Made by a program: the position numbers and the translations under genes | Shown: positions 11,480 to 35,448 of the stretch, piece after piece | Position numbering within the stretch: position 1 is the first letter of the stretch | Layout of the letters: every line of letters begins with the position of its first letter | Notes under the pieces: generated by a model | What the model was told of the DNA's origin: nothing | Database searches by the model: none | What the model saw: the letters and a program-made list of their open reading frames with translations, nothing else | NCBI GenBank assembly: GCA_017502845.1 | Contig: JAFVUE010000006.1 | Coordinates: 1-35,448, forward strand | Source of the DNA: Clostridia bacterium | Lineage (GTDB): Bacteria > Bacillota > Clostridia > UMGS1810 | DNA length: 35,448 bases | Direction: 5' to 3'

Positions 11480-11555
11480 ATAAAAAAGCCACTTCACGGC
11501 GGTGCATCTTAGGGAGAAGTCGGTTTTGAAAGGCAATTAACCGCAAACAGTTCAT

Positions 11556-11594
11556 AAAAAATCCCGAAATACGTCAAGTATTACGGGATTTTTT
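11556..11594 (-). terminator. Bidirectional terminator-like hairpin after fucI
   Basis: AAAAAATCCCGAAATAC (11556-11572) pairs with 11578-11594 with one mismatch around the loop GTCAA, and T-runs flank both sides. It is well placed to end fucI transcription on the minus strand. Its minus-strand loop TTGAC is the same as in the repeat core. Confidence 0.8.
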
Positions 11595-11668
11595 CTTGTT
11601 CCTGTTTACGACAAAATTTCTCTTTCAAAACTGCTAGGCACCTTAAAACAAGAGGTTTTTAGTACAGA

Positions 11669-11721
11669 ACGAGGCAAAAGTGCGAAGGAATCCTGACGGA
11701 TTTCAAGTACTTTTAACGAAG
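11669..11721 (+). repeat. Conserved core of dispersed element, copy 1
   Basis: The core starts ACGAGGCAAAA, contains a small hairpin AATCC-TGAC-GGATT (about 11689-11702), and ends in TTTTAACGAAG. A copy of equal length, about four fifths identical by eye with small gaps, lies on the opposite strand at 35313-35365. Confidence 0.8.
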
Positions 11722-11807
11722 TTATGTGCAAAAACATAAAGTTTTAAGGCGATTTATCCCTAAGATGCACCGCCGCAGGCGAAGTGGCTTTTTTGAAATT
11801 CAAATTA

Positions 11808-17245: not shown

Positions 17246-17247
17246 TG

Positions 17248-17342
17248 TCTCAAACAGGGGAGCTGGTGTCAGCCGGCTGAGAGGGAGTAATCAACTCCGA
17301 CCCTATAACCTGATGCGGGTAATGCCGCCGTAGGGAGTGAGA
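17248..17342 (+). promoter_or_regulatory. TPP riboswitch (THI element)
   Basis: The conserved TPP aptamer is readable in order: GGGGAGC (about 17257-17263), the CTGAGAGGG pyrimidine-binding box (17277-17285), GACCC, AACCTGATGCGGGTAATGC (17307-17325), and GTAGGGAG (17330-17337). Outer bases TCTC (17248-17251) and GAGA (17339-17342) can extend stem P1. It precedes thiM and is followed by a terminator, so it should switch off the thi operon when thiamine pyrophosphate is plentiful. CCGCCG inside the aptamer can also pair with the terminator region (see findings). Confidence 0.96.
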
Positions 17343-17357
17343 GATTGCTTTTATCGG

Positions 17358-35234: not shown

Positions 35235-35285
35235 TGATTTTTGCATACAATATATCTTAGCCGAAAGAGAATAATCCGAACCACG

Positions 35286-35448
35286 ATTTTCAAAGGCGGA
35301 TTTTCGATTTCGCTTTGTTAAAATACTCGGTAATCCGTCAAGGATTACCTGCGTTTTTGCCTCGTGCAACCAAAAATCCGCACTTTGAAAATTCCTTGAC
35401 CTTAAACGGATGGAATTTTGAGGAGATTTTGGCGCAGAAGACGCCGCA
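35286..35448 (-). repeat. Second inverted-repeat element, core copy 2, cut by window edge
   Basis: Arms 35286-35304 (ATTTTCAAAGGCGGATTTT) and 35372-35392 are near-perfect inverted copies. Between them, on the minus strand, lies the core 35313-35365, matching 11669-11721. Inside the core GGTAATCC (35329-35336) and GGATTACC (35342-35349) form a perfect 8-pair hairpin with loop GTCAA (TTGAC on the minus strand). Beyond the arms, 35393-35448 holds another TTGAC and a GGCG/CGCC hairpin and runs to the window end, so the full element is not seen. Confidence 0.75.

Follow-up and report, generated by a model that had tools for sequence, protein, structure and literature searches.

Structure of the element at the two sites

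The window, meaning the whole stretch of 35,448 nucleotides analysed here, is one complete contig (C6) of an 820-kb Clostridia draft genome with 72% completeness. Whole-genome search recovered a 53-base core at the two places where an earlier note had described it, 11669–11721 (+) and 35313–35365 (-), with a mutual identity of 81% (E 5e-5). The larger palindrome around this core was recognised from 12 copies read with their flanks, and at the first site the core proved to be the tip of a 279-bp element (Table 1). R1, a covariance model that represents the core and was derived from 29 diverse copies, gave two matches in this element, head to head and on opposite strands. This arrangement makes the element an inverted dimer of one bulged-hairpin half-unit, in which the 5' ends of the half-units meet at the centre and the terminal repeats lie at the outer ends. 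For the 279-nt unit RNAfold predicts a folding energy of -120.6 kcal/mol (z -12.7), with the terminal arms closing the junction of two long hairpins that comprise core 1 and core 2. The arms named in the earlier note (CCTTAAAAC and ATTTTCAAAG) are real, but they make up just the outer part of helix P2 and the element extends beyond them. The window additionally contains a TPP riboswitch at 17246–17353 (+; 69.6 bits; Rfam RF00059).

Table 1. Coordinates of the element, its parts and its flanks within the window.
Feature	Position	Strand	Evidence or remark
Whole mobile element of family A (279 bp), two hairpin half-units in inverted-dimer arrangement	11497..11775	+	Terminal repeats, two head-to-head model matches, fold
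Left terminal inverted repeat CGGCGGTGCATCTTAGGG, 18 bp	11497..11514	+	
Right terminal inverted repeat CCCTAAGATGCACCGCCG, 18 bp	11758..11775	+	Outer TA of sister copies mutated here
Core 1, half-unit on opposite strand	11516..11638	-	R1 match 44.3 bits, E 1.8e-8
Core 2, half-unit with the 53-base core of the earlier note	11634..11755	+	R1 match 84.9 bits, E 1.2e-19
Internal loop, conserved 5' side, GAGGC (RAGGC in most copies)	11671..11675	+	A-G-G-C 97-100% in copies outside the model seed
Internal loop, conserved 3' side, AACGAAG (AACRAAG)	11715..11721	+	A-A-C 96-100% in copies outside the model seed
Terminal hairpin AATCC-TGAC-GGATT	11689..11702	+	C-G pair becomes A-U or G-C in other families; pair 74-141: CG 49, AU 45, GC 31
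Terminator-like hairpin interrupted by the element, left half AAAAAAGCCACTTC	11482..11495	+	14-bp flank repeat
Same terminator-like hairpin, right half GAAGTGGCTTTTTT	11781..11794	+	14-bp flank repeat
Element of family B at the second site, TA-GCCGAAAGAGAATAATCCGAACC, truncated by contig end	35258..35448 and beyond	-	Terminal inverted repeat 35258-35282; R1 match 35279-35399, 107 bits; sister copies 275-277 bp

Divergent arms and conserved pairing

Comparison of the copies showed that their arms sort into 14 families. Complementarity of the terminal inverted repeats within an element was 0.91 (16 nt, 44 standard-length elements), whereas the arm match between families was 0.34, near the shuffled value of 0.28, and the identity of the 53-nt core between the same families was 0.72 in comparison to 0.48 when shuffled. 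These values quantify what had been described in the earlier note as a conserved core with changing but complementary arms. TA was present at both ends in the expected place in 56 of 85 delimited elements, 43 of which measured 275–279 bp from TA to TA, and a recognisable TA..TA pair was absent in the remaining 29; the copy at 11497 has itself lost its TA. The inner-offset control for TA carries no information because TA is self-complementary. At L264 (G011:C74), a left end that belongs to arm family C gives way inside core 1 to another, related sequence, a junction that looks like recombination at the hairpin.

In the sequence-based MAFFT alignment of the seed copies, 80% of cells pair. Double changes occupy 157 cells, where shuffles give 72.6, and pairing fell to 54% when the partner was slid by one column. 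Among 134 model matches, 86% of cells pair with 831 double changes in comparison to 307 shuffled, in an alignment that was fitted to the model and leans the model's way. The seed columns GAGGC, AAAA and TTTTAAC are uninformative on conservation because the seed copies were picked by a pattern that fixes them; in copies outside the model seed, the unpaired A-G-G-C and A-A-C were still 96–100% conserved and the stems varied. Pairing, not sequence, is conserved in arms and stems, and the compensatory changes that the earlier note had set as a test were seen in both the arms and the core helices. In a palindrome, template switching can produce such changes too, with no need for the fold to be under selection. 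Mobile DNA, one of the two options originally offered, is well supported by the evidence given below. The support for selection on the fold comes from covariation, which DNA-level palindrome correction could also produce.

Insertion at TA and mobility

The mobile DNA reading is well supported because of the TA flanks in combination with orthologous empty sites and an interrupted gene. Joined flanks of two insertions (L223 and L237) aligned in relatives free of the element, where an identity of approximately 70% and gaps near the junction mean that the alignments show absence and not the exact junction base. At a third locus (L243; G011:C87), where the element breaks up a reading frame for a Rieske domain, joining the flanks with one TA gave one open frame, ...LLKPTTPRCPHMGCALEYNKEEHSWDCPCHGSRF... 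(...CPHMGCALEYN...). Insertion thus occurs at TA. Some copies at different loci are nearly the same (93–99% identity), and two tandem copies at L219 have one TA in common. The element sits in frame within the Rieske-domain gene, which it lengthens by 92 codons that include no stop.

Families A and F were found inside terminator-like hairpins, with flank repeats of 18 bp (L031), 14 bp (the first site of the window) and 13 bp (L065) in comparison to a maximum of 12 bp among 6314 mismatched flank pairs; L070 showed the same placement by eye. This placement in hairpin loops can be interpreted either as a target preference or as tolerated insertion, both being possible. A T-box leader-like match (L237, 2333–2565, -; 68.3 bits, under the gathering score of 93) was recorded near an element in G004.

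Distribution of the element

The pattern ACGAGGCAAAAN{10,32}TTTTAAC had six exact occurrences in the 820-kb assembly and none for the reversed-pattern control, and a blast search with the core of the second site identified 11 places in the same genome. At E <= 1e-4 the R1 model detected 19 copies in this draft genome (G000), 38 in the relative G006 and 35 in G004. Many further copies, which the earlier note had set as a test, are present both in the host genome and in its relatives. Among the genomes sampled, R1 detected copies in 15 of 16 from the order and in 67 of 391 from the class. Named carriers identified by pattern scan were almost all metagenome-assembled genomes of Oscillospiraceae or Clostridia, many of them from ruminants.

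Phage, plasmid and viral-contig collections gave no convincing copy, as the pattern matches there resemble chance matches to coding sequence and scored no higher than 23 bits against the model; a match in an E. coli plasmid was a single 34-nt piece. Matches in Sporomusa and in one gammaproteobacterium (13 bits) were rejected because they resemble homologous coding regions, of recN type when inspected by eye. The Rfam comparison proposed in the earlier note was carried out with Rfam 15 at gathering and relaxed thresholds and gave no covariance-model match over the element, and literature searches found no description or name for it. A sub-threshold Gut-1 RNA match was recorded separately at L024, 1154–1239 (29.2 bits vs 50).

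Interpretation and alternative explanations

We consider the element to be non-autonomous, TA-targeting, MITE-like mobile DNA of approximately 275 bp that lacks a gene and inserts between genes, with a probability of roughly 0.7. The mobile nature is the well supported part of this reading, and the mechanism is the part that we infer. Each half carries a bulged hairpin in which RAGGC and AACRAAG form the conserved unpaired strands, and the terminal arms enclose both halves and pair with each other but are free to change in sequence. An enzyme supplied in trans may recognise the TA ends and the bulged hairpins, the latter in the form of single-stranded DNA or of RNA, and not the arm sequence, and this mode of recognition would account for one architecture occurring with at least 14 arm sets. 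Several points weigh against this reading: searches of draft genomes gave no autonomous copy and no mobilising transposase, the arms are not tied to one insertion sequence in the manner of standard MITEs, approximately a third of the delimited copies have no recognisable TA..TA pair, and the compensatory changes may stem from template switching. A more speculative proposal, which we regard as unlikely, is that these copies represent a class of mobile elements recognised by bulged-hairpin shape instead of end sequence, with arms drifting freely in compensated pairs and with mobilisation by a type of enzyme that has so far not been linked to MITEs.

The copies may alternatively be ordinary MITEs that belong to several DDE insertion sequences with TA targets (IS630/Tc1-like or IS5-like). 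Every arm family would then have a transposase of its own, and the core common to them would be either an old remnant or a site for binding in subterminal position. TA flanks with terminal repeats of 16 to 25 bp are typical of such MITEs, including RUP and Correia (PMC2229807), and insertion sequence copies get lost from draft genomes. This explanation is nevertheless somewhat unlikely, as neither the IS630-type DDE_3 transposase nor the IS5-type DDE_Tnp_1 transposase was matched in seven element-rich draft genomes that together account for most copies (0/7 for each). Tracing the unpaired ends of arm family C through seven draft genomes for an autonomous copy gave just truncated, chimaeric or contig-cut elements, none bearing a transposase, and no autonomous insertion sequence with the same ends was found beside approximately 100 copies in draft genomes. 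In addition, a remnant should not retain its loop sequence and its pairing across 14 arm families.

It is quite improbable that the element is a structured non-coding RNA or cis-regulator selected as RNA, with dispersal being secondary, although the composition of its helices offers some support. In the sequence-based alignment, the inner helices of core 2 had 4 A-C cells against 24 when shuffled and 25 G-U cells against 40, and this far greater depletion of A-C than of G-U is as expected where one strand is used single-stranded. Some copies also end immediately 5' of a ribosome-binding site. However, G-T in single-stranded DNA hairpins could yield the same asymmetry, which the terminal arms do not show (23 G-U and 23 A-C cells). 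This contrast hints that the arms are kept as double-stranded DNA and the cores as single strands, albeit on small numbers, and the single strands may also be DNA. The orientation of the element to flanking genes was unbiased (++23, --28, -+12, +-9), which speaks against cis-regulation of downstream genes, and no conserved neighbour gene recurred beside approximately 100 copies. Absence of the element from orthologous loci and of any matching Rfam family likewise argues against selection as RNA.

REP and REPIN elements with their RAYT or TIRYT transposases are dispersed, intergenic palindromic hairpins that form inverted dimers (PMC3733652), and the present element has each of these traits, its dimer being one of bulged hairpins. 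All the same, it is highly improbable that a hairpin-binding RAYT or Y1 transposase moves the element in the manner of a REPIN. Y1_Tnp was matched in G000, and 14 of 23 tested genomes with the element gave a match, but so did 12 of 17 genomes free of the element; none was present in G004 and G006, two of the richest carriers. The RAYT/Y1 gene of the host genome is flanked by unrelated repeats (GGGGACGTACATTTTTTGTC) and has no core match nearby. REPs furthermore lack a TA duplication, whereas the present element has TA-flanked insertions, no tagged unit of 20–40 bp, no associated Y1 gene and no GTAG tag that was noticed. A Y1 transposase-like ORF of 250 aa was recorded in the host genome (L321; G000:C9:2500-5500) with several flanking copies of the unrelated repeat GACAAAAGGGGACGTACATTTTTTGTC. 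Finally, an integron attC site (RYYYAAC ... GTTRRRY ends) was rejected since TTTTAAC sits 3' of the hairpin with no GTTRRRY opposite.

Relation to known miniature elements

The closest among named elements to this MITE-like DNA are the TA-targeting bacterial MITEs, comprising RUP of Streptococcus pneumoniae, Correia/NEMIS and ERIC, which are small, gene-less and mostly intergenic, have inverted terminal repeats and 5'-TA termini, and give a transcript that forms a long stem (PMC2229807). All of these traits are common to the present element, which falls within the structural definition of the group. It differs in its length of approximately 275 bp in comparison to 107–155 bp, in being an inverted dimer with two bulged hairpins, and in carrying at least 14 unrelated arm sets on one conserved core. 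It is also spread over many families of a class, and no partner insertion sequence was found for it in the draft genomes, whereas standard MITEs have terminal repeats in common with one insertion sequence.

An abundant element of Marinomonas (G061, L124–L153), present with approximately 300 ends that bear the terminal repeat GAGACCTTTGCACGA, resembles the present one in being a palindrome centred on CGAGGC-stem-AACAAAG. It differs in its length of approximately 140 bp, in having target repeats of approximately 5 bp in most copies, and in possessing one arm set; one copy (L085) scored 38.5 bits and a Colwellia locus scored 48 bits. Common origin with the Marinomonas and Colwellia loci is just a lead because both were picked by pattern.

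Our verdict is that the element is a new and widespread variant of TA-targeting miniature elements. No name was found for this repeat, which is abundant in Clostridia of gut and rumen, reaching more than 10 copies per megabase in places, and which breaks assemblies and inserts into genes and terminators. It also poses the question of how a mobile element keeps moving while its end sequences change almost completely yet remain complementary.
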